Virus record (IMG/VR): IMGVR_UViG_3300030106_003684
Span: 1-48,446 of that record
Reading direction: 5' to 3' (one strand)
From: a virus
DNA: 48,446 nucleotides
Shown: one piece after another, positions 1,491 through 42,567 of the stretch
Layout of the letters: every line of letters begins with the position of its first letter
How positions within the stretch are numbered: the stretch's first letter is position 1
The notes under the pieces: model-generated
Told to the model about the DNA's origin: nothing
Databases searched by the model: none
The model's input: the letters and a program-made list of their open reading frames with translations, nothing else
Program-made: the position numbers and the translations under genes

Positions 1491-1846
1491 TAGTTTGAAT
1501 CCGGTATGTTAAGGTTTGATTCACTTGTTGCATCTGTAAGTATAACATTTGTATCTACAAGTCTCGGTATCTGCATATAATCACCATTATCATCCATAAA
1601 ATAAACTTTAAATACTTTGTTAACTTCTAAAATATTATTTGAACTGTCTTTAGCTGCATCTTTTAAACTATAATACATTTGATTAGCGGTTGTACTTAGT
1701 TTTGCTGTAGATACTTTACTATTATACATACCTAGTTCTACAAGAGCATCATTAATTAAAGACATAATATATTTTTCAGGCGCATCAGGAAATACTTGAC
1801 GCACTCTACTAATAATTTCTTTTACTGTTATTGTTCTAACTGACAT
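1490..1846 (-). CDS. Putative head-tail adaptor protein (118 aa)
   Basis: Starts MSVRTITVKEIISRVRQVFP and is predicted to be helical in its first 40 residues (ISRVRQVFPDAPEKYIMSLI), followed by a beta-rich half. An N-terminal helical hairpin with a short beta part is common among small phage adaptor and neck proteins. It overlaps the upstream 1288-aa gene by 11 nt and the downstream 143-aa gene by 1 nt, so the three are coupled. Assignment is by size and position. Confidence 0.6.
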   Translation of the reverse strand: MSVRTITVKEIISRVRQVFPDAPEKYIMSLINDALVELGMYNSKVSTAKLSTTANQMYYSLKDAAKDSSNNILEVNKVFKVYFMDDNGDYMQIPRLVDTNVILTDATSESNLNIPDSN

Positions 1847-4800: not shown

Positions 4801-5702
4801 GTTGCTATAGCTGCTGTTGCAGTATTTATAGAGGTTGAACCTGAATCAACTAAAGCGGCTGACTCATCTAGCTCAGCGTCTGCAGCCGAAATCTGGGTAG
4901 CTGTTTTATCTATTTCTGCATTAGCTAAAGCCACTTCAGCTGCCATTTTGTCGGCCTCTGTATTAGATAAAGCCACTTCAGCAGTTGCTTTGTCTACTTC
5001 TGCATTAGCTAAAGCTACCTCTGCTGCCATTTTATCTACTTCAGCATTTGCTAAACCAATTTCAGTTACAGCTGAATCAGATTGTGCATTTATTAAAGCT
5101 ATTTCAGTATGAACATTATCTGCAATTGATTGTAATTCATCAAGTTCAGTATTCATAGCTGTCATAGCTGTTGTTATATCAGCATTAGATGATTTATCAC
5201 CTAAAACATTTTGTAATGATTTTATAGAAGCATATATTGGTACTAAATATTCAGCTTCATCAGGAAATACTGCTATAGCAGAATCACCATAAGCTACTGC
5301 TGGATATTGAACTTCAGAATATGTTACTGAGCCTCCAGTAGGTAATACATCTAATGAATTATTTTCAATATAATAAATAGGGTCTGTAACTGTAGCATAA
5401 TTCATATCGTCAGGGTCTGAATATCTACCTTTAAACATAGCTGGAACATCGCGACAAGGCTGAGTAATATCACCATCGCTTCTTAAAACATTTGATATTT
5501 TTCCAGTATTTAATGTACTAGCGCTACCAGAAGTAAAACTAACAGAAGCTGTACACAAATTTAAAAGGTTTTCTGGTAGTACATTTATTATTTCTTTAGC
5601 TCCATCTGTAAGAAACTGAGTTAATTCAGTTTGAGTAGGAGCGCTACTTCCATCTATTGAAAGACTTGTTAAACCTTCTACCTGTGCTTCAAAAGTAGCC
5701 AT
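1836..5702 (-). CDS. Giant structural protein: neck-like N-terminus fused to a long heptad-repeat rod (1288 aa)
   Basis: Residues 1 to about 170 form a compact domain (contains CRDVPAMFKGRYSDPDDM and FPDEAEYLVPIYASIKSL) that resembles an N-terminal domain common in marine-phage structural or neck proteins; this is from memory, not a search. From about 180 to the end the protein is a low-complexity Ala-rich rod. The first part repeats a 14-residue unit (A-E-V-A-L-A-N-A-E-V-D-K-M pattern). The last several hundred residues repeat seven residues of the form QGYxxxA, more than 15 times in phase near the C-terminus (SGYNQSA, QGYLGTA, NGYGATA). A strict 7-residue period with small residues indicates a long alpha-helical coiled coil, plausibly a trimeric fibre or a whisker. 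It is nearly free of Cys. Overlaps the adaptor gene by 11 nt. Confidence 0.75.
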   Translation of the reverse strand: MATFEAQVEGLTSLSIDGSSAPTQTELTQFLTDGAKEIINVLPENLLNLCTASVSFTSGSASTLNTGKISNVLRSDGDITQPCRDVPAMFKGRYSDPDDMNYATVTDPIYYIENNSLDVLPTGGSVTYSEVQYPAVAYGDSAIAVFPDEAEYLVPIYASIKSLQNVLGDKSSNADITTAMTAMNTELDELQSIADNVHTEIALINAQSDSAVTEIGLANAEVDKMAAEVALANAEVDKATAEVALSNTEADKMAAEVALANAEIDKTATQISAADAELDESAALVDSGSTSINTATAAIATSAGKINAAINLANGEFDAAVLESAQAESEVDDSKIDTALDLINTQADNAVSNVSDIRTALASATTRMATAKTDIDLAKAEAAQMSSQTDNSGNFGTAVGAMVTQLNKVDEIIVEASAEFDKVDNVIVEGSVEFDKSSALLALGETDSEGAVNTAAAKIITEMDETQAVCDKIDADLVLAKAEIVLAKAEAAELASYTDNSGEFETACDAMVTELNKVDDIINLANEEFDEVATQTSGSKDSPILDAFTEFEEAKNLSGAYGSGDIRTSLDAMQASIDEVDNIVDVAKGKVTDFYTSIGDIDDTTELWDGTNKRFTTIRDALTQAQNLIDNNSPHADYDAWANLADIDAAMGKMDAHLTDGETILTNDPTSGDIATALTAMKNAIEASEAAYDKMIGADESVFGDEETFLTSNSQLTRVKAALDNAENVINNNQPSSTTDAYGALAAEDIELVNSALSISTTEIARAKTHLAEWTSIGDMRIKEVQACLNEADGYAKEVQARLQYAQAYSTASAARGQEGQSRIAQLNATVSVASQELARANVAIAEINTIMSSYKLEIEGVSPYLQSAQGYISQAQGYAEEIQSYSVAGQIFINTGKAYLEEAKATIDAGNAYIQEAQARIAQANGYAAEISARAGFSGAKARAIQGYITTAQSYTANAQGFGNEVQSKVAIANGYIAEIDVRLRQAEAKRQESQSRLTAGNAYLQEANAIVGQGSAYIKEAEAYIAQAQGYASQIAAMSSQTGAKFQAVQAYVATANTYLAEVAQDISLAQGYASAVNAYVQSAQSYGLEIDSRLKYASGFGQTAQTRLATGNGFLAEASGRASEVQSYVNEVAARIQNIQAQVSVSQGYLGTASGYNQSAQGYLGTASGYGQVGDKYAQTAAGFSQTAQGYLGTANGYGATAQGYIANANSYIQASQGFIASAQAYVNEIQAKIAISQGYANEAQIRLAVDGAQYGWIEKQQAKLQADYDKGLQLLISQGAQNVS
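2042..2260 (-). repeat. Tandem 21/42-bp coding repeats (heptad units) in the rod gene
   Basis: The DNA encoding the QGYxxxA heptads is itself repetitive. For example, the 31-bp stretches 2185-2215 and 2227-2257 differ at a single base and lie exactly 42 bp (two heptads) apart. Repeats this similar at DNA level imply recent unit duplication and make this gene prone to length variation. Confidence 0.75.
4904..5058 (-). repeat. Tandem 42-bp coding repeats (14-residue units)
   Basis: Nearly four imperfect 42-bp units encode AEVALANAEVDKM-type 14-mers (two heptads each) near the start of the rod. Approximate boundaries; the units differ at several third positions and a few residues (NTEADKM, NAEIDKT). 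Confidence 0.7.
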
Positions 5703-15532: not shown

Positions 15533-15734
15533 TCTGCACTATTGGTACTACTACGTTTTCAAAGTACTGACAATCATAAGCTTTACAAGGCTTATTTGCG
15601 TACCTACTGTCTATAACTTGATGTAGTACTCCGTTTTCGTGTTTCATCATAGCTCCTATGCATATTTTATTAACCCAGTTACAGCAATGCTTCTTAGCTT
15701 GTGCCATCTTTTTATTCTTTTCTGAGTCTAGCAC
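15522..15734 (-). CDS. First gene of the late leftward block (61-70 aa), Cys-rich
   Basis: The longest frame starts with GTG at 15734; an ATG at 15707 (residue 10) preceded by an A/G-rich stretch is an alternative giving 61 aa. Residues include CCNWVNKICIGAMMKHENG and a later Cys near AYDCQYFENVVV, hinting at a metal site or disulfides. It is the promoter-proximal gene of the leftward late block, facing the divergent control region. Function unknown. Confidence 0.55.
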   Translation of the reverse strand: MLDSEKNKKMAQAKKHCCNWVNKICIGAMMKHENGVLHQVIDSRYANKPCKAYDCQYFENVVVPIVQNEH

Positions 15735-15945
15735 AGCGGAAGTTAAGCAATATTATTATAAATGTCAAATTTGCAATTTTTAGGCTTTGTAATATATATA
15801 TAATAATATAGCTATTATATATAATATATACTATACGCATATAATAGTTATTTCTACTACTATACTATACTATATATATTATACAAAAACTTGAAAAAAA
15901 TTTTTCACAAATATTTTGAGGTTTTATAGCGCTGTTTTAAGGAAA

Positions 15946-16035
15946 ATGCAAAAAATAGGGTCACTTTGGGTGTGGGTCTTTTATGTGCCCCCGTACCCGG
16001 TCGTCTGTTTTTCGAGTTGTAGGGAATTTAGTTGA
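15946..16035 (+). CDS. Possible short ORF (29 aa) in the control region
   Basis: ATG at 15946 preceded by TTTTAAGGAAA (good Shine-Dalgarno at 4-nt spacing), ending at TGA 16033-16035. The product begins MQKIGSLWVWVFYVPPYPVV and is strongly hydrophobic with aromatic residues and two Cys, so it could be a membrane peptide. It coincides with a GC-richer island. Chance ORF is possible because of its length. Confidence 0.3.
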   Translation: MQKIGSLWVWVFYVPPYPVVCFSSCREFS

Positions 16036-16162
16036 AAATTAATTATACATAATATATATTATACGTCAATGGGTTATAATTGCTTGTATTAGCAATAATA
16101 AAAGCAAAGCAAGACACAAACAAACTATAATTGTTTACTTGTTTTATTGTTTTATTTAAATC

Positions 16163-16192
16163 TTGACACTAATCAAATCAATACACTATATT
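16163..16192 (+). promoter_or_regulatory. Sigma70-type early promoter
   Basis: TTGACA (16163-16168) and TATATT (16187-16192) are separated by 18 nt, the best -35/-10 pair I see in the window. Transcription would start near 16199-16201 and run into the 140-aa gene at 16237. The match to the host consensus fits an immediate-early promoter used by unmodified host RNA polymerase. Confidence 0.7.
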
Positions 16193-16203
16193 AACAGTGT
16201 TAA
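16191..16203. promoter_or_regulatory. Palindrome TTAACA-G-TGTTAA over the early start site
   Basis: A perfect 6+1+6 inverted repeat immediately overlapping the -10 end and the predicted +1 of the early promoter. The position is that of an operator for a dimeric repressor. No second copy noticed nearby. Alternatively it could be a short 5'-end hairpin stabilising the early mRNA. Confidence 0.45.
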
Positions 16204-16236
16204 TTAAATAACTAACTAACTAAAAGGATAAACAAT

Positions 16237-16659
16237 ATGGTTAAATATACTAATGCTCAAGTATCAGAGATTAAAGATTCATTGTTTACTGATATAGTAG
16301 ACGGCAATGAAGTATTTAATACTAAAGCCTTTGATGATTGGGTAACAATGCAAGAAGCTAAAGGAAATACTTTTCCCAAAGCTAGAACGGGCAAAGTAGT
16401 TGATAATGAAACTATAGCTAAACTAAAAGCTGAGTTTACAACTGCAATTAAGAAACTGCCTAATGTTACACCAACAGGTAAAAAAGGATTTGTAATAGAT
16501 GGTAATGACCAACTAATACAAGTTCAGCCATTATTTAGGGTAGTTGAAGCTAATAAAGCTGGAGTTAGTGAGGCTAAGTATAAGGAAGTATACAAAGCTA
16601 CTGCAAAAGCTCAGAATATTAAGACACCTAAAAAGGATACTACCAAGCAAAACAAGTAA
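16237..16659 (+). CDS. Immediate-early monocistronic protein (140 aa), unknown function
   Basis: Preceded by the strong promoter and AAAAGGA, and followed 25 nt later by a strong terminator, so it is a stand-alone, probably highly expressed early gene. The protein is Lys-rich (MVKYTNAQVSEIKDSLFTDI start; about one residue in six is Lys) with helix-beta patterning and a basic Lys/Thr tail (TPKKDTTKQNK). No family recognised. High basicity and first-expressed position fit a host-takeover or DNA-binding protein, but that is inference. Confidence 0.75.
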   Translation: MVKYTNAQVSEIKDSLFTDIVDGNEVFNTKAFDDWVTMQEAKGNTFPKARTGKVVDNETIAKLKAEFTTAIKKLPNVTPTGKKGFVIDGNDQLIQVQPLFRVVEANKAGVSEAKYKEVYKATAKAQNIKTPKKDTTKQNK

Positions 16660-16683
16660 TTGTAATATTGTTTGCAATAAATC

Positions 16684-16715
16684 AAGCCTATTCATATCTT
16701 GGATAGGCTTTTTTT
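16684..16715 (+). terminator. Rho-independent terminator
   Basis: An 8-bp stem AAGCCTAT / ATAGGCTT (16684-16691 with 16703-16710), 11-nt loop, followed by a run of T to 16715. It closes the monocistronic 140-aa transcription unit and separates it from the large early operon. Confidence 0.9.
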
Positions 16716-16770
16716 ATGATTTATTTTAAGATACACATACTAAAACACTCCAAACCCTCGGATTCAATAC

Positions 16771-17259
16771 TTGGATAAACTAAATATATATATCAATCGC
16801 CATTCTACCAGAGTTATCGCTAAAGATTATACTACAGGTAAAAGTGAAGTAGTACACCATACAACAAAAGCGACACACTACCAAACAGCGAGAGATATGG
16901 TAATTAATCACTTAGCAAAGTATTATATTCAAAAGTATAATTTGCGTATAGTTGTATTTGATAATGTAATAAAAGAAGTTATAACATACAGACCAGATAA
17001 AAGCGTACCTCCAGAAGATAAGTACAAAGGTTTACCTGCGTCAAATAGATATATACCGGATAAACTTGTAGAGTTTGAAGCTAACGGCTCACGCTATAAA
17101 GTAGATAAAGATTTTAATCTGTACACTGAAGATAACAGTGCGTATTATAGAAATATAAAGAAGAGTAGACTGCGTTATTTAACATCACAGTATGATAATG
17201 ATAGAATGAGCGCAGATACATTTGTTTATGAACTAAATAAAGCAATAGATAATAGATGA
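16771..17259 (+). CDS. Early protein (162 aa), unknown function
   Basis: The frame opens with a TTG at 16771 (MDKLNIYINRHSTRVIAKDY); there is no ATG until residue 47 (MVINHLAKYY), and no strong RBS before the TTG, so the start is uncertain. The protein is basic, with mixed alpha/beta patterning and a Tyr-rich middle (YKGLPASNRYIP). No domain recognised. It is the first gene of the main early operon, and its stop codon lies within the 5' arm of a 13-bp hairpin. Confidence 0.55.
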   Translation: MDKLNIYINRHSTRVIAKDYTTGKSEVVHHTTKATHYQTARDMVINHLAKYYIQKYNLRIVVFDNVIKEVITYRPDKSVPPEDKYKGLPASNRYIPDKLVEFEANGSRYKVDKDFNLYTEDNSAYYRNIKKSRLRYLTSQYDNDRMSADTFVYELNKAIDNR

Positions 17260-17310
17260 GTAGCGACAATATACTAGCAACCTCCTACCACATCGCTTCG
17301 CTATTCATCT
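17254..17310 (+). ncRNA. Long hairpin spanning a stop codon (RNA element)
   Basis: AGATGAGTAGCGA (17254-17266) pairs with TCGCTATTCATCT (17298-17310) over 13 bp with one G-T pair. The 31-nt loop contains CCTCCT, the sequence complementary to a Shine-Dalgarno site, and TCGCT repeated. The 5' arm covers the TGA of the upstream gene; the 3' arm ends 22 nt before the next ATG. There is no U-tract, so it is not an ordinary terminator. It may control coupling or mRNA stability. Confidence 0.45.
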
Positions 17311-17332
17311 TCTATTGCGAAAGAAAAGAACT

Positions 17333-17530
17333 ATGAAAGAACAAGATAAACTATCAATTTATAATTACGCTGAAACTATGAAGTCAATAAGAGCTATAGA
17401 GCGACAGTATTGGGTTGGTGATGGTCATATAGAGGCGGCAAAAAGAATTCATACACTAAGAAGTGCTATGTTAAAATACAGGCGACAGTTTTTAATATAT
17501 AGAATATTGGAATTTCTACGCCTAAGATAA
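17333..17530 (+). CDS. Small helical basic protein (65 aa)
   Basis: ATG at 17333 preceded by GAAAGAAAAGA; a TTG 18 nt upstream in frame is possible. The protein is mostly helical and basic at its end (MLKYRRQFLIYRILEFLRLR), resembling small host-interaction or DNA-binding phage proteins. It lies between the 13-bp hairpin and the AAA+ gene. Function unknown. Confidence 0.5.
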   Translation: MKEQDKLSIYNYAETMKSIRAIERQYWVGDGHIEAAKRIHTLRSAMLKYRRQFLIYRILEFLRLR

Positions 17531-17600
17531 AACTTATCAAAGAAAGCACAGCGACAAGTAATTGTCGTATGTGATAACAAATAACATAAAAGGAAAAGCG

Positions 17601-19697
17601 ATGCAAGATACAATCTCAGTAAAAGGATTGCATACCGCCTTGAACGATAAGGACTACATTTGTAGTTCATTATTTGCTTCAAATATAGCGTCAGCAATTC
17701 ATGCAAAGCCTGTTGGAGGTGCGTTTCTATACGGCCCTGCCGGTACTGGAAAAAGTCTGCTTCCACAGGTGTTATCTGAGATTCTTGAGCGTAAGCTATA
17801 CTTCCATCAATGTTCAGCAGGTACTCGCGAAGATGACCTATTGATGCGTATTTGGCCTAGTGAAGAAACTACTTCAGGCGTCAAAATAGAATATGGTAAA
17901 ATATTCGAAGCGTCAAAAGCATCACAAAGCGAGAAAGTTGTTGTTGTATTAGATGAATGGGATAAGACAAAACCTAGCGCAGATGGTTTCTTTCTAGACT
18001 TTCTGCAATATGGTCGCTTATCTGTGCCTAACGGAGATGATGTTAAGGCGAACTTAGATAATATGATAATATTCTTTACTGCGAACGATGAACGTGATTT
18101 CTCAGAAGCTTTAATGCGTAGGTTTCCTAAAATAGACCTAATGCCATTAACGCCAACACTTGTTAATAAGGCACTGAAGAAAACACATAAGAGTAGCCCG
18201 TTTCGCCCTAATGCTATTAGTCTGTATCAAAAATGTCTGATGGCGGATATGCCCAAACCTGCAACTATACAAGAATTGCGTCAATTATTAGATGCTATTA
18301 CATTTCTTGGTAAAGGTGCTGATTGGGATACGCTAGTATATCAATACATAACAAAGACAGAAGAGAATCATTCATTACTTAGCGAAGCTGAGAAAAATGA
18401 ATGGCAAGACTATAAAGAAGAACAAAAGTCTAAATTAACGCCTGAAGCATATATTAAGGCGTTTGGTGAAGACAAGAAAACTTCTAATGGCGTTGAGATG
18501 CCTAAAATGTGTGATTTAAGGAACTTTGACAGTGACTTTGATACTGTACAAGGCATTTCTAATGATGACGACATATACGGCGTTATTAATCGTGATGACG
18601 AAGCATATTCAGTGATAACTGATACAGTCAGCGATATGCCAGAAGAACCACAGTTCCTCGATTGGGCGGAAGTACGTAATGATTGCATTATTGCTAAAAA
18701 ACCTGTTCCACTTGAACACGCACACGAATTTATGACTCGATTTAGTAGAACCACCGCAAAAGGTGAAATGGTATTCACTACCGATGATATATCACTTGAT
18801 GAGATGCGTAGATTAGTTCGTGGCAAGTATACAAAACACAAGTATTCCGCTGAGGAAATTATTGCTCGTGAAACATATACTGAGCGTGACAAGACAGTTA
18901 AAAAGGATAAGGTTGATGTGCGATGGAAAAATGGTAATACAGAGATAATTGTTAATGTAGGTCATATTATGCGTTTGCTAATAGCTATGCAAATGAATAG
19001 TAAACATAACTTACTACAATTACCGGAAGTAGCACAACACAAAGGTATTACTACACATCCTTTGCTTAGTATTAGCGATATTGTACCATTTTATCTTAAA
19101 ATAACAAGACCGCAAGATAAAATAGGCAATCTGATGCTCAAGAATCTGAAGCGCACAAACAGTTATTGTCAAATGCTTATGCCTAAACCTCCACAAAAAT
19201 ACAGCGATATTGATATCTCTGCTAGAATAGATGATTTATACACTAGAAAAGCTAAGTTTCAATATACAACTGTACCGGATGTTAAGGTAGTTAAAGCGAA
19301 TGGTATACAAGTAAGACTTACAAGTCTAAATACGCACCATGATTATGATGGCAATGATACTGTTTATGTCAGAATCAACGATGCGCCTGATATAAATGTA
19401 TTTAAGTTTGCTCTTGGGCTAGTTGAATACATACCATTATATAGGTGTTTCAAAGCGAATAGAAAAGAAACAATGGCTGATATGCAATCTACCGGTTGGA
19501 AAGTATCACCAGACAACCTTGATGCGTTGTCTAAAAATGATACTAACTGTTTATTCGTATCAGACCATGTGATAGTTTGGCGTAACTTTTGGGCAAGTGA
19601 GAACTTAAACACAAGTAACGTATCACTATCTAACAGAATAAAATCGACAATAGCGTTGTTAAATACATTAAAGGACACTTATGAAGCTAAAGATTAA
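17601..19697 (+). CDS. AAA+ ATPase of the MoxR/CobS type (698 aa)
   Basis: N-terminal AAA+ module (residues 1 to about 220): Walker A YGPAGTGKS (44-52), Walker B VVVVLDEWDK (113-122), sensor-1 FTANDERD (159-166) and an arginine-finger region ALMRRF (170-175). The order and spacing match dynein-like/MoxR and CobS ATPases, which remodel partners together with VWA proteins. Residues from about 220 to 698 form a long C-terminal region I do not recognise, probably the substrate or partner-binding part. ATG at 17601 has AAAGGAAAAGCG before it; the 12-codon longer TTG frame lacks this. The next gene overlaps by 17 nt and carries a VWA domain, a pairing seen in MoxR-VWA and CobS-CobT systems. Confidence 0.85.
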   Translation: MQDTISVKGLHTALNDKDYICSSLFASNIASAIHAKPVGGAFLYGPAGTGKSLLPQVLSEILERKLYFHQCSAGTREDDLLMRIWPSEETTSGVKIEYGKIFEASKASQSEKVVVVLDEWDKTKPSADGFFLDFLQYGRLSVPNGDDVKANLDNMIIFFTANDERDFSEALMRRFPKIDLMPLTPTLVNKALKKTHKSSPFRPNAISLYQKCLMADMPKPATIQELRQLLDAITFLGKGADWDTLVYQYITKTEENHSLLSEAEKNEWQDYKEEQKSKLTPEAYIKAFGEDKKTSNGVEMPKMCDLRNFDSDFDTVQGISNDDDIYGVINRDDEAYSVITDTVSDMPEEPQFLDWAEVRNDCIIAKKPVPLEHAHEFMTRFSRTTAKGEMVFTTDDISLDEMRRLVRGKYTKHKYSAEEIIARETYTERDKTVKKDKVDVRWKNGNTEIIVNVGHIMRLLIAMQMNSKHNLLQLPEVAQHKGITTHPLLSISDIVPFYLKITRPQDKIGNLMLKNLKRTNSYCQMLMPKPPQKYSDIDISARIDDLYTRKAKFQYTTVPDVKVVKANGIQVRLTSLNTHHDYDGNDTVYVRINDAPDINVFKFALGLVEYIPLYRCFKANRKETMADMQSTGWKVSPDNLDALSKNDTNCLFVSDHVIVWRNFWASENLNTSNVSLSNRIKSTIALLNTLKDTYEAKD

Positions 19698-20838
19698 TAG
19701 AAGCTGGCGTAAATGGAAAGATGAAAACAATGACAGACACGCTCCTAGAGTGGTTGTCGGTAGTGAAGAGGGGTCTGGCGCAAGTCAGACCTCTCGCCCT
19801 AGTCAAAATACTGCATTAAAGAATTTTAAAGTTAAAAAAGTTTCAAATGCTAAATTAAATAGCAAATCAAATAAAATGTATGATGCCGGTAAGGAATTAT
19901 ACGCTAACAATAATATTGTGTCTAAAAAAGGCATATCAAAAACTCGCAGTAAATCTAAAACGCCTGAATATGATATTGGCAAGATTGAACGTATGACTGA
20001 AAATGTATATGAACAGTTAAAAGAACAAGGTAATCGCGGTAATGATGCTAAAGTACAAGAATTAGATGAGCGATTAGATAATATATATGATTTTCAAAAT
20101 CAATTAGAATATAGTATTCATAACTTTTATAAAAAAGATAACAAAGAAAATAAAGTAGATGAAAAACAAGAGTTTGGTTCAAATCAATTTTGTGCGCCTT
20201 CTTTAGGTATAAACTACTATAAATCAAGAAATAGGCGTTATGGTACTGAATTCGCTAATTTAATAGCTAAACTAGCTGAAGATAATACTGGTTCAGACAC
20301 AGAAGGCGATGAATTTTGGGATGAACACTTATTAACAGAGCGTGTAGTAACAAAATATGCTATAAATAAATGTAAAAAAGACAGAGTTAAAGAGCGTATA
20401 GTATTAATGTTAGACACTTCTCCATCTTGTAAGCGTGTTGCTAATTTTTATGGTCTTATTGCACAATTAGCAGCTAAATATGATGATATAGAATTATATG
20501 ATGCACCTAATGGTAGAATTGTACATAAATATTGCAGGCGTACAAAAGATTTTATTCCAATATGGAACGAACAAGACATACAAAATAGAGCGTATGATTG
20601 GAAATATTTAAAAGATAGAACTGTGTTAATATTTACTGATACTGATGCAACTAGACCTGTGCGAGAGAATATAGGTGTAAATAATATAGTTTTTATGCAC
20701 CATAAGAGCGAACGTGATTCTTTATATCGCTCAGAATTTAAAAGACTTGTTAAAAGATTAGTAAAATCCGGAAATAGTATTTATTATGATATAGATAGCC
20801 CGGATAAACTCGTGGAGGTAATTAAAAAACTTAAATAA
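19681..20838 (+). CDS. VWA-domain (CobT-like) partner of the AAA+ ATPase (385 aa)
   Basis: C-terminal VWA-like domain from about residue 235: the first MIDAS loop is LMLDTSPS (Asp245, Ser247, Ser249; DxSxS) and the later strand VLIFTDTDA supplies another metal-site Asp. The first about 230 residues are a basic, Ser/Lys-rich flexible region followed by helices (IERMTENVYEQLKEQ). The domain is short, near 150 residues, a minimal VWA. In MoxR-VWA and CobS-CobT pairs the VWA protein bridges the ATPase ring to its target through Mg2+. It starts inside the ATPase gene (17-nt overlap, GGA box), so the two are made together. Confidence 0.78.
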   Translation: MKLKINRSWRKWKDENNDRHAPRVVVGSEEGSGASQTSRPSQNTALKNFKVKKVSNAKLNSKSNKMYDAGKELYANNNIVSKKGISKTRSKSKTPEYDIGKIERMTENVYEQLKEQGNRGNDAKVQELDERLDNIYDFQNQLEYSIHNFYKKDNKENKVDEKQEFGSNQFCAPSLGINYYKSRNRRYGTEFANLIAKLAEDNTGSDTEGDEFWDEHLLTERVVTKYAINKCKKDRVKERIVLMLDTSPSCKRVANFYGLIAQLAAKYDDIELYDAPNGRIVHKYCRRTKDFIPIWNEQDIQNRAYDWKYLKDRTVLIFTDTDATRPVRENIGVNNIVFMHHKSERDSLYRSEFKRLVKRLVKSGNSIYYDIDSPDKLVEVIKKLK

Positions 20839-20859
20839 TAACAAAAAAAGGAGCGTAAT

Positions 20860-21771
20860 ATGTCTAAACAACAAAGTTACTACATCTCTTTAACATCGGA
20901 TGCCCATGCGGCTTTCAATGTTAAAGTTGCTAGTAAAACTGAAATGGAAAAAGCTAAACCGCTATTTAGTAATTTAGTAAGTCTATGTCAAAATTCGCTA
21001 AACAACAGTAGTACGCCACAAGAGTTCTTCAAAGAGCTTAAAGGGCGACTTGAGAAATTTAGTGAATTTACTGCTTTTTTTGAAACTAATGCAGTTTCAA
21101 TGGCGACAGCTATCACACAAATGCGTTTTCATACGATGTTAGTTGATAGTTGGGATAAACAGTATGCTAAAATACTATGTACAAGAATGGGCGAAAAGGA
21201 TAAATCTTATGATTTACCGCCACCATCTATGGTTGTTAATTTAGAAAGCAAGACGAGAGCAAAGCTGAGCGATAAAAACTACATCGATGCATACAATAGT
21301 GTTGGTGCGGTAGAAGTTAGCTATGGCTTTATGGATGAAGATGGCGCTAAACTAGATAAAATTAGCAAAGATGTGCCTAAAGAAGCTATTCAAGAAGCGA
21401 TTGACACCATGATGAATGATGTTGAAAAGCTGCATAGAAAAGCTATAAGAAAAGTTCTTGTAGATTGCGGTTTAGAGCCTAAAAGCGGTGAATTATCTGT
21501 TAATGATGATTTTATTGGTGCAATAAAGCGATTAGGTACTCAAAAAGGTGATAAATATCAAGCTAGTAATAAAATGCACGAATTGATTGACAAGATGAAT
21601 ATCAAAGCGTCTGATGATTTTGATGATATACTTAGTAAGTTAATGTCAAATCCAGAAACGCGTAAGTTAATTCTTGAAGATTTCAAGAGATGGCGTGCTG
21701 AAAAAGATGGCGAAGATGATGAATTTGCTGGAATGATGCCAATACCGGGAGAATTTGTAGCTGAAGCATAG
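20860..21771 (+). CDS. Third protein of the AAA+/VWA operon (303 aa), helical, unknown function
   Basis: Starts 21 nt after the VWA gene with AAAAAAGGAGCG in front of its ATG. Predicted mostly helical, with acidic-basic patterned stretches (KMNIKASDDFDDILSKLMSN) and a Met-containing C-terminus (EFAGMMPIPGEFVAEA). No enzymatic motif, transmembrane segment or metal site. I do not recognise a family. By position it is the likely substrate, adaptor or structural target of the ATPase-VWA pair. Confidence 0.7.
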   Translation: MSKQQSYYISLTSDAHAAFNVKVASKTEMEKAKPLFSNLVSLCQNSLNNSSTPQEFFKELKGRLEKFSEFTAFFETNAVSMATAITQMRFHTMLVDSWDKQYAKILCTRMGEKDKSYDLPPPSMVVNLESKTRAKLSDKNYIDAYNSVGAVEVSYGFMDEDGAKLDKISKDVPKEAIQEAIDTMMNDVEKLHRKAIRKVLVDCGLEPKSGELSVNDDFIGAIKRLGTQKGDKYQASNKMHELIDKMNIKASDDFDDILSKLMSNPETRKLILEDFKRWRAEKDGEDDEFAGMMPIPGEFVAEA

Positions 21772-21774
21772 TAA

Positions 21775-21915
21775 TTGTAGGTAGATGCCGTAATAAAGCT
21801 AGCGCCCTACAAATGGATATGGTTATGTGATAACTTGTAGTTTTTGTTTATAGGTATTCATTTTCTACAACAGGTTCGCAACCTGCATATCCACTGAGTC
21901 GCAACAAAGCGACTC
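21775..21915 (+). ncRNA. Candidate structured RNA with a zero-linker cloverleaf
   Basis: The 165-nt gap holds no ORF but is almost fully paired. Outer helix GGATATG (21815-21821) / CATATCC (21886-21892) encloses three hairpins that abut without spare bases: GTTAT-GTG-ATAAC (21822-21834); TTGTAG...CTACAA (21835-21840 / 21865-21870, 24-nt loop); CAGGTT-CGC-AACCTG (21871-21885). It is flanked by TTGTAGG (21775-21781) / CCTACAA (21806-21812) and, three bases after, by GAGTCGC-AACAAA-GCGACTC (21896-21915). TTGTAG and CTACAA each occur twice, so arms can exchange partners, as in a switch. It is not a canonical tRNA (the third arm has a 3-nt loop, no T-loop). It ends 21 nt before the ParB-like gene. 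Confidence 0.6.
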
Positions 21916-21936
21916 TTAACAAAAAAGGAGTATTGT

Positions 21937-22794
21937 ATGAAAGATACAACAGATTGGGAATCTGAAGCGAAGAAATATAAATCGCTTTATGATAAAAATC
22001 TAACTCCTGATGATGATAGATTGCTTAATATGCTCGCCACTAATGGCAAAAGCGAGTTTTCAGATGAAACTCTGGAAACTCACATGACTTTTGGCACTAA
22101 GCAGTACACTAAGTTTAGTCTAATATCAGGAAATCGCGATATGAGCGATAGCCATATCGATACGCTTGCTGAGAAAATCAAAACAGGAGAAAACTTTTTA
22201 AAGTATTGTCCTATTATGGTTGATGAGCAAATGCGTATACTTGATGGGCAGCATCGTTTTTTCGCTGCTCAAAGAGCAGGTGTACATATATGGTACAATA
22301 TTGTTGTAGGTAAAGTCAATCTTGACACTGTTGCGAGAATCAACGAAAGTCAAAAGAAATGGCAACCTAGCAATTTTATCCATATGTACGCTGATATGGG
22401 TTATGTCGAATATCGAACATTTGAGGAGTTTATTAGTAAGGACAGAGGTTATCATTTGTCGCCTTCTACTGGACTCTTATTGTTTGGTAATCAATCAATG
22501 AAAACTCTGCGTTCAGGAGATTTGCAACTTGTAGACCTTCTTTACGCTGAGAAAATGGCAGATGCGCTGCTAGATGTACAAAAATACGTAAAGTTTGCAA
22601 CGTACAATCGTTTTGCAAATGCTTTTAAGCGCGTTTTTGAACACGAAGAATACAACCATAAGCGTATGATGAAAAAGTTAGAACAGAGAAAGCACACTAT
22701 CAAAAAGCTGACATCTGTTACTGATTATATTCGCTTAATAGAAGGAATCTACAACTATAATATGCACGTAGATAAGAAAGTTCGCTTCTTTTAA
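21937..22794 (+). CDS. ParB/sulfiredoxin-fold protein (285 aa)
   Basis: The core has YKAL-like lead-in then ILDGQHRFFAAQRAG (DGQHR, residues 103-107), the phosphate/nucleotide-binding motif of the ParB-Srx superfamily. Instead of the ParB HTH, the second half (about 150-285) is a helical region (FIHMYADMGYVEYRTFEEF) related to other phage DGQHR proteins. Role: nucleotide-dependent DNA or partner binding, possibly transcription or partition-like control; family only. Residues 5-20 (TDWESEAKKYKSLYDK) match residues 60-75 of the capsid scaffold closely, also at DNA level. AAAAAAGGAG precedes the ATG and a structured RNA lies upstream, suggesting its own post-transcriptional control. Confidence 0.75.
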   Translation: MKDTTDWESEAKKYKSLYDKNLTPDDDRLLNMLATNGKSEFSDETLETHMTFGTKQYTKFSLISGNRDMSDSHIDTLAEKIKTGENFLKYCPIMVDEQMRILDGQHRFFAAQRAGVHIWYNIVVGKVNLDTVARINESQKKWQPSNFIHMYADMGYVEYRTFEEFISKDRGYHLSPSTGLLLFGNQSMKTLRSGDLQLVDLLYAEKMADALLDVQKYVKFATYNRFANAFKRVFEHEEYNHKRMMKKLEQRKHTIKKLTSVTDYIRLIEGIYNYNMHVDKKVRFF

Positions 22795-22804
22795 GTACGC
22801 CTCC

Positions 22805-22886
22805 CTTTACTATAATATATATAATATATAGTAGTAAAGTAATGTATAGTAATATGCGTAGTATATAAATTATATATATACTACGC
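22805..22886. repeat. AT-rich nested inverted repeats (possible origin or promoter zone)
   Basis: Within the 194-nt gap after the ParB-like gene, CTTTACTA (22805-22812) pairs with TAGTAAAG (22832-22839), and GCGTAGTATATA (22856-22867) pairs with TATATACTACGC (22875-22886), a perfect 12-bp stem with a 7-nt loop. The surroundings are almost pure TA. CTTTACTATA recurs directly after the second stem (from 22886). The rest of the gap (about 22920-22988) is A/G-rich leader with an AAAGGAAAAAGCG site for the next gene. Strand separation here would be easy; an origin is possible but unproven. Confidence 0.55.
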
Positions 22887-28875: not shown

Positions 28876-29208
28876 ATGATTGAATATACAAAAGGGAAAA
28901 AAGCAGAAGGCGATTTAATCGTAAGAGTAAATGGTCATCAGCTTACTTTTAAAGAGTTAGCTGAAATATGCGTACAACTATGCAAAAACGAGGATAAGAT
29001 ATATCCTTTTCCTTATAAAGGTGGCGCTTACTTAACAAACTTTTTAGTAGACTGTATGGATGCTAGAGAAGTTTCAAGTGCTATACTAAATAAATATCAT
29101 CTTAACGAAACGCCAAAAAATGACTCTAATAAAAATTTGCAATTAGAAAAATCGAATTTTGATAGCGATAATAAAGAACAACAAGATTCCGTTGAGAAAA
29201 AAAGTTAA
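28876..29208 (+). CDS. Small early protein (110 aa), unknown function
   Basis: GAAAGGAGAAAG precedes the ATG. Mixed alpha/beta protein with two Cys in ELAEICVQLCKNEDK and a Tyr/Pro-rich patch (IYPFPYKGGAYLTNFLVD); the last third is Asn/Asp/Lys-rich and probably disordered. It overlaps the methyltransferase start. No domain recognised. Confidence 0.55.
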   Translation: MIEYTKGKKAEGDLIVRVNGHQLTFKELAEICVQLCKNEDKIYPFPYKGGAYLTNFLVDCMDAREVSSAILNKYHLNETPKNDSNKNLQLEKSNFDSDNKEQQDSVEKKS

Positions 29209-30307
29209 AGAAATAACCAATAAGGTTTTTCTTGGCGACTGTAGAGATGTTCTAAAAGAATATCCTGACAAATGTGTTGATACTTGTATTACATCGCCTC
29301 CTTACTGGGGTTTACGTGACTATGGTACATCTACTTGGGTAGGTGGAGACAAAGACTGTTCTCATCGCAGAGATACAAAGAAATCTGATAAATGTATAAC
29401 AGGACATAAGAATTTTGATGAAATGTTAGGTGTTGGCGATGCTATATATAAATCAGAGTGTAAAAGATGTGGAGCAAAGAGAGTTGACAGTCAAATTGGT
29501 CTTGAAGATGAAGTTAGTGATTACATAGAACAATTAGTTGATGTATTTGGTGAAGTACATCGCATACTTAAAGATGATGGCACTCTATGGCTTAATCTAG
29601 GTGATTCATATGCAGGCTCTACAGGTAAATCTGGAGGCGTAAGCGAAATACAAAGCGTAAAGAGACAATTAGACACAGGCTCTATTGGTTCTCTTAGACC
29701 AGCTAAAGTAGCTGGATTAAAAAATAAAGATTTAATTGGTATTCCTTGGCGAGCAGCATTAGCCTTGCAGAAATATGGATGGTATTTAAGGTCTGACATT
29801 ATTTGGCACAAGCCAAATCCTATGCCTGAGAGCGTTAATGATAGACCCACTAAAAGCCATGAATATATATTTCTCCTGTCTAAAAACCCGCAATACTACT
29901 ATGACGCTGATTCTATTAAAGAACCTACTGTAACCCCTAATACAGGAACTTCATGGAAACAGCGCAAGATAGACGGAGAACCCATGCGACATGGGCTGCA
30001 GGGTGCTGCCGCTGTAGGAGCAGGAAATTTCAAAACGTATGAGAAACGTAATAAGCGTTCCGTATGGACAGTACCAACTAAGCCATATGCTGGAGCGCAT
30101 TTTGCTACGTTTCCTCCAGAACTTATAACAGACTGTATAATAGCAGGGTCTAGAGAAGGCGGTATAGTATTAGACCCATTCATGGGTTCAGGTACTATAG
30201 CTGAATATTCTAAAAGATTAGGAAGACTTTACACTGGCGTTGAACTCAATGAAGAGTATCATGCCTTAATTAACGAGAGAACCTCACAAATGGAGATGTT
30301 CATATGA
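29192..30307 (+). CDS. DNA methyltransferase, beta-class N4/N6 amino type (371 aa)
   Basis: Catalytic motif IV SPPYW (35-39) lies before the AdoMet-binding motif I DPFMGSGT (328-335), the order of beta-class enzymes. Between them is an inserted Cys/His module (CSHRRDTKKSDKCITGHK ... CKRCGAKRVD) that probably binds zinc, and TRD-like sequence. SPPYW is common to N4-cytosine and N6-adenine enzymes. No cognate restriction enzyme is visible, so it likely protects phage DNA from host restriction or marks replication. A start is not clear; TTG at 29192 places the usual short lead before FLGDC; an earlier in-frame TTG exists at 29159. Confidence 0.88.
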   Translation: MRKKVKEITNKVFLGDCRDVLKEYPDKCVDTCITSPPYWGLRDYGTSTWVGGDKDCSHRRDTKKSDKCITGHKNFDEMLGVGDAIYKSECKRCGAKRVDSQIGLEDEVSDYIEQLVDVFGEVHRILKDDGTLWLNLGDSYAGSTGKSGGVSEIQSVKRQLDTGSIGSLRPAKVAGLKNKDLIGIPWRAALALQKYGWYLRSDIIWHKPNPMPESVNDRPTKSHEYIFLLSKNPQYYYDADSIKEPTVTPNTGTSWKQRKIDGEPMRHGLQGAAAVGAGNFKTYEKRNKRSVWTVPTKPYAGAHFATFPPELITDCIIAGSREGGIVLDPFMGSGTIAEYSKRLGRLYTGVELNEEYHALINERTSQMEMFI

Positions 30308-30787: not shown

Positions 30788-33700
30788 TTATCTAAACTCT
30801 GACACTGCTTTCCAAAACTCTCGCTTCTTTTGCTTGTAAAGTTCATCTAATATCATTTCTTCACGCATTTGCTCAGGAGTTAGTTTAGATTTATACAACC
30901 TGTATTTTGTTGTCATTTCTCCTTTATCTCTTTTTCTCCAAGAAGCAGGTATCGGTCTAATTTTTGATAAAATATTTCTAATACGTTTTCTAGCTTCATT
31001 TCTAGCAGCAGCTTCATTCTTAGCTAAAGCTACATCCTGCCTTTGTATTGTATGCGTCAAATAATTAAGTGCGGTATAATAAGCATGAGCTTTTTCCTCT
31101 GGAGTATCTAACCAGAATATATTTCTAAGATTCTCGTAGTAAGGACTCTTTTTAGTTAAAGCATCGCTAGCATCTACAACAGGCCTATAGTCAGGAAAAT
31201 AAGCGTTTAAAAATTGAGTTTGTCTTCTTCTTGAGTTTTGTACACGCTTTCTAGTTTCTTTTGTTAAGTTTCTATACACTCTTTGATAACCTGAGTAAGC
31301 AGCTATTGTTTTCTTTGCTAAGGAGTTTAATCCTTCAGGAGCATCTTTCTTTCCATGCATTATATTCATTGCTTCTTCTGATAAATCAAGAAAATTTCTA
31401 AACACCACAGGCGTATAGGAATCAGATATTGAGCTACCGTATTCATCGAAAGCATTACTTAATATTCCTAAGCCTTCAGCGCGTATAAAGTTTTCCCAGT
31501 ATGTAGCAGGAGCATCTTTAAATCTATTTTTTCTTTCTTCTCCAAATGCGTACCAATATGTTGAGTACATAAGTTCACCTGAAGCCATTGATAAGCCGAC
31601 ATATTTCATCATAGGCCATATATTTCCTTGATATATAGTTGGCTTTATTACAGTTTTAGCTATATGGTCTGTCATTCTGTACGCTATTCTGTAGAACAAT
31701 GTTAAAGGCTTGAATCCTTCGCGTCCCATTATATATGGTATGTATGGATGCTCTCCTATACCTTGAGTCATTGAATGCATTCTATCTGCTGCTGATATTA
31801 GCTGTTCATTAGTCCAACCTTCTCCGCCAGCTTTTCTTCTAGCTAACATTCCATCAAGCTGTTTATTTGTAAATCTTAAGTTGTCTGTTAGTATAGCTCT
31901 AGAAGTAGCTTTGGAATACCCCCTGTTAGAAAAGTTTTTTATGCCTAATAAATTATCTAAATGAACTTTCATTACGCCGGGAGTCATCATAACAGCCATA
32001 TATCTGTTAAAATATTCAGTTGGTCGCATTAAACCAGACCTTATTAAACCTTCTCTAACGCCTTCTAGTCCCATTCTGCCTGCATCCTTTAGACCTTTAG
32101 GTTTTGTAATCATGCCGTACAAAGGTTGTTTTGGTTTAATAAATATATCGTAAGTATTTCCGCCTCTGACTCCAGCAGCTTCTGTTAATGCTGAAGCTAT
32201 TTTTCTCTGCTCTGGGCTTGTCATTAAATGATACCAAGCTTTTAAATATTCTCTACCAGATAAAACGCCAAGTTGAGTTTGACCTAAAGCAAAGTTTTTT
32301 ATACCGCTTAAAGGAAATGATAAACCTATAGTAGCGCTTGCTCTTGTTGCTGTTCCAATAGATGACCACCAAGCTGGGCCTAATTTTTTTCCAAGAAAAG
32401 GATAATCATAATCTCTTCCAAACATCTGGTCTTTCATAACGCGCATTGCTAAATCTTCAAACCATTTAGCTGTTTCATCTTTCATTCCTGTTTTTATTAT
32501 ATCAGCTTTCATTTTAAGCAAATTTGCTGGTATGTTTATACCTTGCTCTGGAACTGGTTTAGTTAATCCTTCTATACCTCCAAAAGCTTTGTAGGAAGCT
32601 ATAGACTTTGAAGTTTTTTTAACATATTTATTAATAATATCAATGGGTTTTGTGCTATACACCTGCACAGCCTTACCAACTGTAAGAGTTCTTCCGTCAA
32701 CGTCTTTAATTTTATCGTTAACTTTAAATGGCGTTCCATCTTCTTTAAAAACTTTTCTAGCATATGGATTTATCAATTCTTTATTTACTTTATCATAATA
32801 TATCCAAGCGTCTAAGTCTGCAACTCTTGAAAATACTTGTCCATCAGGTATTTTACCTACTTTACTGTCACTAGAAAATCCTTTTAAATTTACTAACATT
32901 TCTTCAGCAACAGCTCTTCTAACTTTAATATTTTCAATAGACAATAACTCTGGGCTTTGTTCTATTATTTTTTCAATTATATATTTATTTCCTTCTTGCG
33001 TTGAAATAAAATCCCAAAATTTTTGAGTGATACCTCTAGGAAAATAATTAGGAACATAATGATTGTATGGTATCTCTCCAATTCTTATCTCACTTGTTGA
33101 TGTTCCTGCTTGATTCCATATCTCTATCATATCTCCTTTTTCTTTTTCACCGCGCATAACTGCTAGTAAATCTTTTTTAGTTATGTCTTGTACTCGTAAC
33201 TTTGTATCTTTTTTAGTTCGTATTTCTATAAAGGGTTCATACTTATTACTTATGTCATTTTTAACTTTACTATAACTTAGAGCTTGGTTATACGCAAAGT
33301 CATCAAATAATTTATCTAGTATCATGTTGCCATAATCAAAAAGAGACATTGTTTGTCCTTTTTTATATCCAGATATCTCTCCATACTTATCGTAAATAGG
33401 AACTTTTACACCCTTTACTTCTTTCTTTTTAAGAAACTCAATCATTTCAGTGTGCTTACCAGCGCGAGCTCCTTTAAATCTCTCCTCTCTTAAAATCTGT
33501 AAAGCTTCTAAGTGCTCTGGTTTCATTTTCTTAAAGAAATTAATTCCAAATAACTGCCCTTGCGTAAGTCCAATTCTATTTATTTTTCCATGAGCTATTT
33601 GTAGATTTACTAAATATTTTCCACCTGTACCTGTAGCGTCTAGTATTGTAGATGACGGTAAAGAACCGCTTGCCCACTCTACAAACTTTAGCCAAGAAGG

Positions 33701-36700
33701 ATTAACACTTGAAGCTACAATATCATCTGGAGGTACGCCCATGTCTAGTTTAGCTGGTATAATATTACCATCATTATCTTTTCTAAACATTTCATTTAAT
33801 CTACTTAACTCCATTGTATTTAAATTATCAAAATTACTTTTAGCTTCTGGAAAAAATGTATCTATAATATTTTTCATTCTTTCGCTTTTATATGGAGCGC
33901 CATACTGACTCATAGTTTTTTTAGCTTCTTTCTTAACTCTAACATAGCTTTTATATTCTTTAGTTCCTCTATACTGTGATTCTATAACGCCTTTTCTATA
34001 TTCTATAGCATCGCTTATCGCTTTAGAACCTTTATCTCCAACCCAATGTTTTTGAGCCCATTGATGAGCCTCAGCTTCTGTTTTAAAACCTTTACTAAAA
34101 TTAGCGTCAAGCAAATCTCCATTATTAAATCTTATACCTTCTGTTTGTTTTCTATCGTATATTAATTTTAATTGCTTTGAGCTACCAATTGAAATATTAA
34201 AATTATCAGTTACTCTAGATAAAGTTTCTGGGTTATAAGGAGATGTAGACAATAGATTAGACATTGATGCAGGTTCTTTTATTTTATTAGAAGCATAATC
34301 AGCTTCTTTATTTTTTAATTTATCTACAACGCCACCCTTTTTAACAACTTCGTTGTGCTTAATTTGTTGTAATTCTAAATTTTCAGCTAAAGATTTTTCT
34401 TTTTCAGGAGTCATTTTTTCTTTTTTATAAAATTCTATATGTTTTTTATATTTTTTATTTTTTAATGATGCAACATATGCTTCAGCGGCTTGTTTTGTTT
34501 CAAACTGTAATCTAATTTGCTCAGCTGTAGGAGATAGCTCAGCCCATTCGCTTTTATACTCTACAGGTATTGTTCCTCTTTGTTCTGACTCGGCTCTTTT
34601 TAATATTTCATTACGTCTTGCAACTTCTGCTTGAGTATATTCTCTAACATTAATAGGTTTTGTTTTTTTAGGCTTATCCGAACCTAACACTTTATCAGCT
34701 ACACCTAAATTATCCCAAAAATTAAGACGCTGATTAGGTGTTAATTTAGCTGGAACATTAGCCGCTGGCTCTATTGGCGTAACTCCTTCTTCTTTCCATA
34801 GCCTTGAATAGTTTCCTTTATTATATTCAACTGGTAAATGCTCAGCACCAAAGCGAACTTCATATACAGTTTGAGCAAGGCTTTTTGTAGTAGCGTCAAA
34901 TGCTCTAACTTGTACAGGAACTATTTCTATATTTTCCAATCTAGGTTTATGCTGTAGTTCTCTAGCTAGATAAAAAACATTATTTCCTAATTGAACTCCA
35001 TTATCTCCAGATTTTTTTAATTCTTTTACAAAACTATCTATACTTCTACCTTCTTTTTTTAATCTTTCTACTATTTTTACAGTATCAGGATGTATAAGTT
35101 TACCTTTCTTTAAATCTGCTATGTCTGATAATTTTAAATCTACAGGTAAAGAAAATTTATAATTAGCTTCTTCTTTATATTTTTGTGAAACTCCCGGAAG
35201 GTCTGTTGGGGTAACGGCTTTTTCAGCTTCTTGTAAATCTAACTTAGCTTTTTTTTCTAATATTACAGGGTCAAATTCAGAGCGCATAATAGGAGCTATA
35301 TCTCTTTCTCTTAAAGCTACAAGATGTAATTTTTCAGAACCTCTTGGAGTAAAAGTTTCATATACTAATGCATCGTCAAAAACAGATGTTTTTTCAAGCC
35401 CCCCTGTATCAACTTTAGCTTTAGTCTTAGCATCCAAATCTTTATATTTACCAACGTATCTTCCTAAAGAAGCTTGTCTGCTTGAGAAAGTACCTTTTCC
35501 TTCATATAGAGGTATTCTGCCCCAGTCTCCAGCATTCACTTCTGCTTTAATAACTTTAGCAGGATTATTTTTATCCCATTCAGACATATTAGCTAGTTCT
35601 TCTTTTAATTTTTCCAGCTTAGGCTTATCTACATTCTTAACTTTATCAGCTAACTGTTTATAAAATTCTCCACCGGGATTTGGGACTCTCTCAAAGCGAG
35701 TAGCGTTGTTTGTAGATTGTTCTTGCAATGTTTGTTTTGTAAACGTGTGCCAAGGAGTATCTTTTCCTCTTAGAAATGTAGCTGGAAACCATAATTTCTC
35801 TGCATTTTTTACAACATAGTTTTTATTTTCTATAGCTTTTTCTAAATTTGTAATTTCTTTTTTTAATTGTTCGCCCTTACTTATAACAGTGTCTACTTTA
35901 GGAACTATTTGTCTAGTGCCTTCAGGTGTAATTTCACTTGTATCTACAATTTCATAACGCCTTCTAACTTGAGGTCTTCCGGGTTCAGGATTAACTCTAC
36001 GCAGTTTTTCATTTTCTTTTTTTATTTGTTTTTCAGTTGCTATATCTTGTTCTGTTCTACCTGCTGGTCTATCTGTTCTTGGCTCAAGAAATTCTTCAGG
36101 ATATACGTCTCTATATCTAGCAAACTTTTTATTAAAATTAGTTTGAGCTTCTTCTATAGTCTCTCCAAATATACGCTCTTGTACTTTTTCTCCTTTTACA
36201 TATATAGGCTCATCTTTTCCTCTTGACCTATCAGCTCTAATCCATTCATATTGAACATAAGGCTTTCCTTTACCCGGTTTATCAACTTCTAAAGTTCTAT
36301 ATACAAGCTGTTCAGAAATATTTTTTTCTGCTTGAGATGGTCTTCCAACTTTTATTTCTTCAGTTAATTTTTGATAATCTTTATGGACAAATAAATTATT
36401 ATCATCTCGTAAAATTTGACCAGCTCCCTTTTCAAGTCTATTTGTTGTTTCACTGTACGCTATCTTATTCGCTTGCTCTTTAGACAGTCCATGCATATTA
36501 AGAAAATCAGCTATACCTTCTCTTCTTTCAGCTCTGTCCATTCCCAATCCAAAACCATGCATTAACATAAGCGTTACGCTATGAGCTAAGCGTTCTTCCC
36601 AAGGCATATCTGTTTGTCCCATATCAGACATATACGCACCAGCTAATCCCATAGCAAACATTTCACCTGTGATAGCTGCAGCTTTTTTCCCTCCAGTAAA

Positions 36701-41805: not shown

Positions 41806-42567
41806 TTATATAGCTGTTATTAAATGTCCACTCCATGATGACCACATACCATCGTTTGGGTCATATGTATATTGAGTATCTCCTGTGTTTTGATAAATAG
41901 CGACTGTTATAAAATCACCAGCATCTAATTTTAAATCTCCACTTATACTATTCATCATTAAAGTACTGTCTATATCTCCACTTACTACTCTTAATTCAGA
42001 TGCTTCTCTAGCATTTGCAGCTGGTTCAGCACTACTATCATTTTTTATAAGGTATATATCATGTCTGTCTCCAGCATCCCAATCTCCACCTGCGCTAGTA
42101 TTATTATCCCACAACACTTTAGCATTAAAATGATATATTCCTGCTATAGGAGCTGTAAACTTATATGCGCTAGTATCATAGTTTCCTCCAATATCATATT
42201 CTTCTGCATCAAAAGTAACATTAACGCGAGTACCACTAGCTATTGTTTGAGCATCCCCGCTAGTACTTATATAAGCTTTAAATGCTGGATATCGTATATT
42301 TCTTAAATATCCATTATAGTTTATATCTTTATTAACATGAATATTTTTATCAAAATGTTGATTGCCATCATTAGATAGTCCAACTTTCCATAATGTACCT
42401 TTACTTTTTTTATATAAAGCTAAAGGTTTATTGCCTTCTTGAGCAAATACTTGTTCTCCTTCTTTCATACTTTGATTAGAAGGAGCATGGCTAATTACGC
42501 CTTTTGTATCTCCAGAAGCTAAACTAGCTTCTTTTATATTTTGTAATCTTCTTATATTTCTATCCAT
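41806..42567 (-). CDS. C1q/TNF-like jelly-roll adhesin (253 aa)
   Basis: The last 130 residues show the C1q pattern: YPAFKAYISTSGDAQT, VNVTFDAEEYDIGGNYDTSA, KFTAPIAGIYHFNAKVLWDN, then LDAGDFITVAIYQNTG and WSSWSGHLITAI. The first 110 residues form a helical/beta stem. C1q-like heads are trimeric beta sandwiches used for binding. Placed beside the tail-hub gene, it is a likely receptor-binding or tail-tip adhesin. Its start overlaps the hub gene's stop by one base. Confidence 0.75.
   Translation of the reverse strand: MDRNIRRLQNIKEASLASGDTKGVISHAPSNQSMKEGEQVFAQEGNKPLALYKKSKGTLWKVGLSNDGNQHFDKNIHVNKDINYNGYLRNIRYPAFKAYISTSGDAQTIASGTRVNVTFDAEEYDIGGNYDTSAYKFTAPIAGIYHFNAKVLWDNNTSAGGDWDAGDRHDIYLIKNDSSAEPAANAREASELRVVSGDIDSTLMMNSISGDLKLDAGDFITVAIYQNTGDTQYTYDPNDGMWSSWSGHLITAI

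Follow-up and report, generated by a model that had tools for sequence, protein, structure and literature searches.

A conserved AAA+ ATPase/VWA-like gene trio in the early region of a marine phage

Described AAA+/VWA systems and the phage trio

Pairs of an AAA+ ATPase and a von Willebrand factor A (VWA) protein are widespread in phages, and proposals for their role disagree, from cobalamin synthesis (PMC8651126) and virion assembly (PMC7824862) to the view that it is uncertain (PMC11288001). Here, we describe a three-gene locus in the IMG/VR virus record IMGVR_UViG_3300030106_003684, a marine phage sequence of 48,446 bases that was analysed at its full length (hereafter, the window). The trio encodes an AAA+ ATPase (gene 1, 17601-19697), a VWA-like protein (gene 2, 19681-20838) and a third protein of no known family (gene 3, 20860-21771), all on the plus strand. 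Its first two genes are a divergent form of the AAA+/VWA pair already known from phages, and a fast-evolving third gene accompanies them. A small-genome lineage that carries the pair and a third gene, and in which neither CobN nor a ribonucleotide reductase was seen, is a useful case on which to challenge the auxiliary-metabolism reading, and the trio offers three compact proteins for a client search.

Adjoining AAA+ and VWA genes have been found as CobT-CobS in phage ICP2, as CobS-CobT in CRP-810 and T5S1, and also in S-SM2, SSU5 and rhizobiophages. A further pair is gp24-gp25 of N4, and group 2.2 jumbo phages carry MoxR-vWA pairs (PMC7824862). As phage CobS/CobT and MoxR-VWA pairs are thus widely described, the pair is less isolated than suggested by an earlier reading of the same DNA (the original prediction). 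Outside phages, the NorQD system provides a mechanism: a finger of NorD enters the pore of NorQ, and the proposal is that NorD is then twisted by ATP hydrolysis, opening the client (PMC13036017, PMC9976466).

Like NorQ-NorD, the trio combines an AAA+ ATPase with a putative VWA partner, the DxSxS motif and late Asp being present in gene 2. When the gene 1 and gene 2 products were modelled separately, at low confidence, the models retrieved NorQ and NorD, respectively, of one solved complex. However, the solved NorQ chains have ~255 residues and lack a long tail, and NorD keeps the threonine of the metal-ion-dependent adhesion site (MIDAS) and serves nitric oxide reductase, whereas the window phage has a third gene and no recognised metalloenzyme target. 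The phage CobS-CobT pairs (ICP2, T5S1 Cobavirinae, CRP-810, S-SM2, SSU5 and RHph) are similar in their adjoining ATPase and VWA genes and in their location in an early or replication region, but their ATPases measure 371-617 residues and their CobT proteins 580-836 residues with a DxSGS motif. The CobS proteins of CRP-810 and T5S1 (L026:959-4777 and L029:953-4759; 617 and 531 residues, respectively) are unusually long and carry their extension on the N-terminal side of the AAA domain, whereas that of the window ATPase is C-terminal. Gene 2 and gene 3 profiles had no match in ICP2, CRP-810 or T5S1.

In the Escherichia phage N4, gp24-gp25 likewise unites a MoxR-like ATPase with a VWA partner in the early region. 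There, however, a dCTP deaminase follows instead of gene 3, and profile comparison gave no convincing match to gp24 or gp25. The ternary vWA-MoxR systems that include VMAP (PMC7159879) share with the trio the number of components and a fast-evolving vWA and third component, but are ordered VMAP-MoxR-vWA, in contrast to ATPase-VWA-third in the window; Pfam scans detected no VMAP family or effector domain. RavA-ViaA of E. coli also couples a MoxR ATPase to a VWA partner with DxSxS, but the RavA profile match is only weak and the GGT motif of ViaA is absent from gene 2.

The operon and its three proteins

The trio is a genuine, conserved operon, and the three open reading frames (ORFs) and their layout were found where the original prediction had placed them. 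The ATPase gene starts at ATG 17601 with AAAAGGA upstream, TTG 17562 being merely the start of the longest ORF. Its stop overlaps the start of the VWA gene by 17 nt; a gap of 21 nt separates the VWA gene from gene 3, and AAAAAGGAG precedes the gene 3 ATG. Ribosome-binding-site-like sequences lie upstream of the trio genes. All three are under purifying selection, and because the ratio of nonsynonymous to synonymous substitutions (dN/dS) is 0.20-0.48 among close pairs of homologues (52-86% identity), they are real genes.

Scans of 2.9 million viral contigs retrieved 10 related contigs. The trio is present in the same order in 7/7 related contigs that are long enough (six by profiles, plus L017), and together with the window these seven represent about five distinct lineages. 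The surrounding genes are syntenic too and the whole early region is shared. The related contigs are one phage lineage in which co-occurrence of the trio is largely vertical. Thus, the trio does recur in other phages, as had been anticipated, but only within a single, fully syntenic lineage, so that its co-occurrence cannot be taken as separate evidence for a three-part machine. A tblastn search with each trio protein against 50,697 annotated phage records found no relatives. Among the matches listed, the AAA domain alone hit only generic AAA in phage records (24-30% identity), and those in bacterial and archaeal genomes were only distant AAA, with no cellular source.

Gene 1 (17601..19697, 698 residues) encodes an AAA+ ATPase, probably of the helix-2-insert (MoxR/CobS/NorQ-like) clade, with intact core motifs and an AAA_5 match that exceeds the cut-off (E=7.6e-16). 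Walker A (GPAGTGKS, residues 45-52, 17733..17756), sensor 1 (IFFTAND, residues 157-163, 18069..18089, with N162 in TAND) and the arginine finger (RRF, residues 173-175, 18117..18125) are invariant in all homologues, as is the core of the Walker B region (residues 113-121, 17937..17963, with D118 and E119), so the motifs that had been read from the sequence hold. The sensor-2 Arg has no clear position. A putative helix-2 insert region (residues 80-100, 17838..17900) aligns with CobS in its sequence pattern. As candidate helix-2-insert and pre-sensor-1 beta hairpins, DSSP of a low-confidence model shows strands at 82-86 and 94-98 and, further on, short bridges at 139-140 and 148-149. The C-terminal extension (residues 261-698, 18381..19694) has no assigned domain and comprises about 440 residues, not the ~480 given before. 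Its last ~110 residues are modelled at a predicted local distance difference test score (pLDDT) of about 73-92, within a whole model that averages 49.

The AAA profile matched the phage CobS profile with E=6e-14 over 151 columns at a score of 99.7, and it scored 52.8 with ClpA D2, 31.5 with RavA (E 0.0013) and 30.5 with N4 gp24; phage CobS was the sole multi-sequence target in this comparison, and taken one at a time, CobS proteins score 25-54, a range into which ClpA D2 also falls. In a fold search of the PDB, the low-confidence ATPase model retrieved NorQ at rank 1 (E=1.2e-4, probability 1.00) and, as another entry, at rank 5. ATPases of the MCM, Clp and sigma-54 activator types followed closely. 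A KICSTOR fold match of the same model was discarded (probability 0.41).

Gene 2 (19681..20838) encodes a predicted VWA-like protein of 385 residues. The DxSxS metal site that had been noticed before is present: in the MIDAS loop-1 motif DTSPS (residues 245-249, 20413..20427), the D, S and S are invariant in six homologues, as are D320 and D322 of the late acidic loop DTD (residues 320-322, 20638..20646), down to 36% identity. No invariant Thr occurs in loop 2 among these homologues, which leaves the DxSxS-T-D pattern incomplete. The YDAPNGRI core (residues 273-280, 20497..20520) is also invariant, and it is situated about where NorD/ViaA-type partners may carry a pore-inserting finger. As ~210 N-terminal residues precede the VWA domain, the protein is not a minimal VWA protein, as was first thought. 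Homologues from the distant clade were found at E<=1e-61.

Scans of Pfam, NCBIfam and PADLOC gave no family for gene 2, and PHROGs only weak matches. For modelling, genes 2 and 3 were folded together with the in-frame stop codons read as serine, a device that claims no read-through. The gene 2 model has the alternating beta/alpha element order of the VWA fold at low confidence (mean pLDDT 49). Its top matches in the PDB included the VWA proteins NorD (9qhe and 9qhd, ranks 3 and 45) and Rpn10 (8jtk and 8amz), with probabilities of 0.57-0.90 and E 0.07-0.35, and its top viral fold match was a VWFA phage protein (probability 0.28). A VWA-only profile scored 22.1 against the CobT/ViaA/N4 VWA domains (maximum of 30 shuffles, 21.7) and 20.4 against a second target set (maximum of 100 shuffles, 19.9). 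Both alignments pair the DxSxS strands, and gene 2 DTSPS aligns with DxSGS of CobT and N4 gp25. Each of these lines is weak, but they agree, and together they lend weak support to a VWA fold.

The product of gene 3 (20860..21771, 303 residues) was predicted to be helical; in our model it is mostly so, but with a few strands as well. Pfam, PHROGs, NCBIfam, PADLOC and the sequences in the PDB yielded nothing convincing for it, so that an unrelated known family, which would have counted against the original prediction, did not emerge, and fold searches of the PDB and of viral folds gave no identification. Fold matches to CD38 and KDO8P synthase were discarded as they derived from a low-confidence model. 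In the distant clade, a protein of 208-212 residues occupies the gene 3 position. When 1,257 ORFs were searched with a model built from the long gene 3 forms, the L020 copy was the top match, at only E=0.014. The profile-profile score was 35.9, whereas 200 shuffles reached at most 24.7 and unrelated neighbours ~14-16. At the level of sequence profiles, this shows gene 3 to be a genuine, fast-diverging set of orthologues that includes the 208-212 residue proteins. It evolves fastest of the trio.

Conservation thus forms a gradient, in which the AAA core retains 75-97% identity and the ATPase tail, the VWA N-terminus and gene 3 far less. Towards the distant clade, identity of the ATPase tail drops to 21-38%, versus 75-76% in the AAA core. 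This suggests that the motor is fixed while client-facing parts adapt: as the core is conserved and the tail, VWA N-terminus and gene 3 diverge, the latter perhaps face clients.

Possible functions of the trio

By analogy with NorQD, the AAA+/VWA pair is probably a client-remodelling chaperone that acts early in infection. A hexameric ring of the gene 1 product would grip the gene 2 protein via a loop of the latter in its pore, as NorQ does with NorD. ATP hydrolysis would then turn or pull the VWA protein, which in turn may remodel a client held at its metal-site face or by its variable N-terminal region. The 17-nt overlap was counted in favour of this partnership. Because the gene 3 product travels with the pair and changes fastest, it most likely has an accessory role, either in determining which client is bound or in regulating the motor. 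As the trio is located in an early replication and recombination block, the client would be a replication, transcription or other host-takeover factor rather than a factor of virion assembly.

Several points weigh against a NorQD-like motor. The MIDAS threonine, which is essential in NorD, is not conserved in gene 2, and the profile matches to CobT-type VWA domains barely exceed shuffles. The models are poor (mean pLDDT 49), with VWA fold matches at E 0.07 or worse. The joint occurrence of the three genes is confounded by synteny of the whole early region, and we infer both the ATPase-VWA complex with its remodelling action and the client. A more elaborate hypothesis is a dedicated three-part phage machine directed at a host polymerase, replication or defence complex in early infection, in which a MoxR-type motor, its C-terminal platform being peculiar to the phage, would drive a VWA arm whose metal site is modified, aimed by a fast-evolving subunit. 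We consider it doubtful. The original prediction cast gene 3 as the target or adaptor and named RNA polymerase, replication proteins or defence as the client; nothing in our analysis shows either, whereas our results support its view that this phage early region encodes a MoxR/CobS-type ATPase and a VWA partner.

Another role for the trio could be in defence or counter-defence, as a ternary MoxR-vWA-X or MadB-like module with gene 3 as the sensor, effector or anti-defence adaptor. The ATPase has the MadB ATPase as its best NCBIfam match (3.8e-10) and the candidate PDC-M37B as its best PADLOC match, and the fast evolution of vWA and third component in ternary systems (PMC7159879) is paralleled by gene 3. 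However, the MadB score is far under the cut-off of that model, and both matches reflect the shared AAA core. Gene order is unlike that of VMAP systems, VMAP and effector domains were not detected, and the homologues show no effector swapping, making a defence role rather unlikely. A chaperone of virion or tail assembly, as proposed for the MoxR-vWA proteins of group 2.2 jumbo phages and Acidianus two-tailed virus (PMC7824862), is unlikely given that the trio belongs to the rightward replication and recombination block, whereas packaging and virion genes are on the other strand. The ATPase might also be a helicase loader or replication-initiation factor, assisted by genes 2 and 3, for the DnaB-like helicase, whose gene follows on this strand after 6.7 kb and for which no loader was recognised. 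The best PHROG match of the ATPase, a clamp-loader family, fits this idea, but the AAA core matches the MoxR/CobS/NorQ group and the presence of a VWA partner is more in keeping with a chaperone-type function, and we regard a loader as quite improbable.

This leaves the cobalamin reading, according to which a divergent CobS/CobT pair would join with the CobN of the host to increase its cobalamin synthesis, a role that has been proposed for viral cobST (PMC8651126). It draws on the AAA domain, whose profile resembles that of phage CobS, and on the cobST pairs that ICP2, Cobavirinae, CRP-810 and cyanophages carry in similar early regions. However, the genome contains no CobT_C (PF11775) match at E<=10, and gene 2, with 385 residues versus 580-836 in CobT, has no detected CobT homology beyond the VWA motif. 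In agreement with the original prediction that no cobalamin target is encoded, CobN (PF02514) and the large subunit of class I/II ribonucleotide reductase (PF02867) were not found in seven records, namely the window and six related ones that are fragments; a host CobN could serve instead. As CobT_C, CobN and class I/II ribonucleotide reductase are all missing, a cobaltochelatase role is disfavoured and cobalt chelation appears unlikely. The function of phage cobS has moreover been called uncertain (PMC11288001), and we give cobalamin synthesis very little credence, favouring the NorQD-like chaperone.

Genomic setting

The minus strand of the window encodes an SU10-type major capsid protein, a portal protein and the large and small terminase subunits. 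A rightward block extends from 16.2 kb to ~30.7 kb, with the trio near its start, and on the same strand the trio has as neighbours a PD-(D/E)XK nuclease, an 'exonuclease'-type PHROG gene, the DnaB-like helicase and a DNA methylase. GC and AT skew reverse sign where the coding strand switches (~15.7-16.2 kb). This switch contains an AT-rich intergenic stretch of ~500 bp (15735-16236), a candidate divergent control region or origin.

A promoter-like site on the plus strand (TTGACA-18-TATATT, 16163-16192, 11/12 consensus match) and a terminator-like hairpin (22856-22886) may delimit an early transcription unit to which the trio would belong (16237..22794, plus strand), with a second terminator-like hairpin inside it (16684-16710). 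These calls are consensus matches only, and their counts are not clearly higher than in shuffles. An Rfam scan of 15700-22200 found no family. Directly 3' of the trio lies a gene for a ParB-like PHROG protein with a DGQHR motif (ILDGQHRFFAA; 21937-22794, plus strand), which is syntenic in the relatives examined.

Among the plus-strand ORFs scanned between 16237 and 30718, the DnaB-like helicase was found and no DNA polymerase or primase was recognised. A protein of 2244 residues (30788-37522, minus strand) has no significant family match, and T7/N4-type RNA polymerase motifs sought in it were not found. Two large virion-side proteins on the minus strand, of 874 residues (42567-45191) and 1288 residues (1836-5702), have no significant PHROG match; in Pfam, the former has no match and the latter only a sub-threshold one to the exonuclease VII small subunit. 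The N6/N4 DNA methylase (29159-30307, plus strand) matches its Pfam family with 334 residues over 221 profile positions, which suggests an internal insertion of roughly 110 residues.

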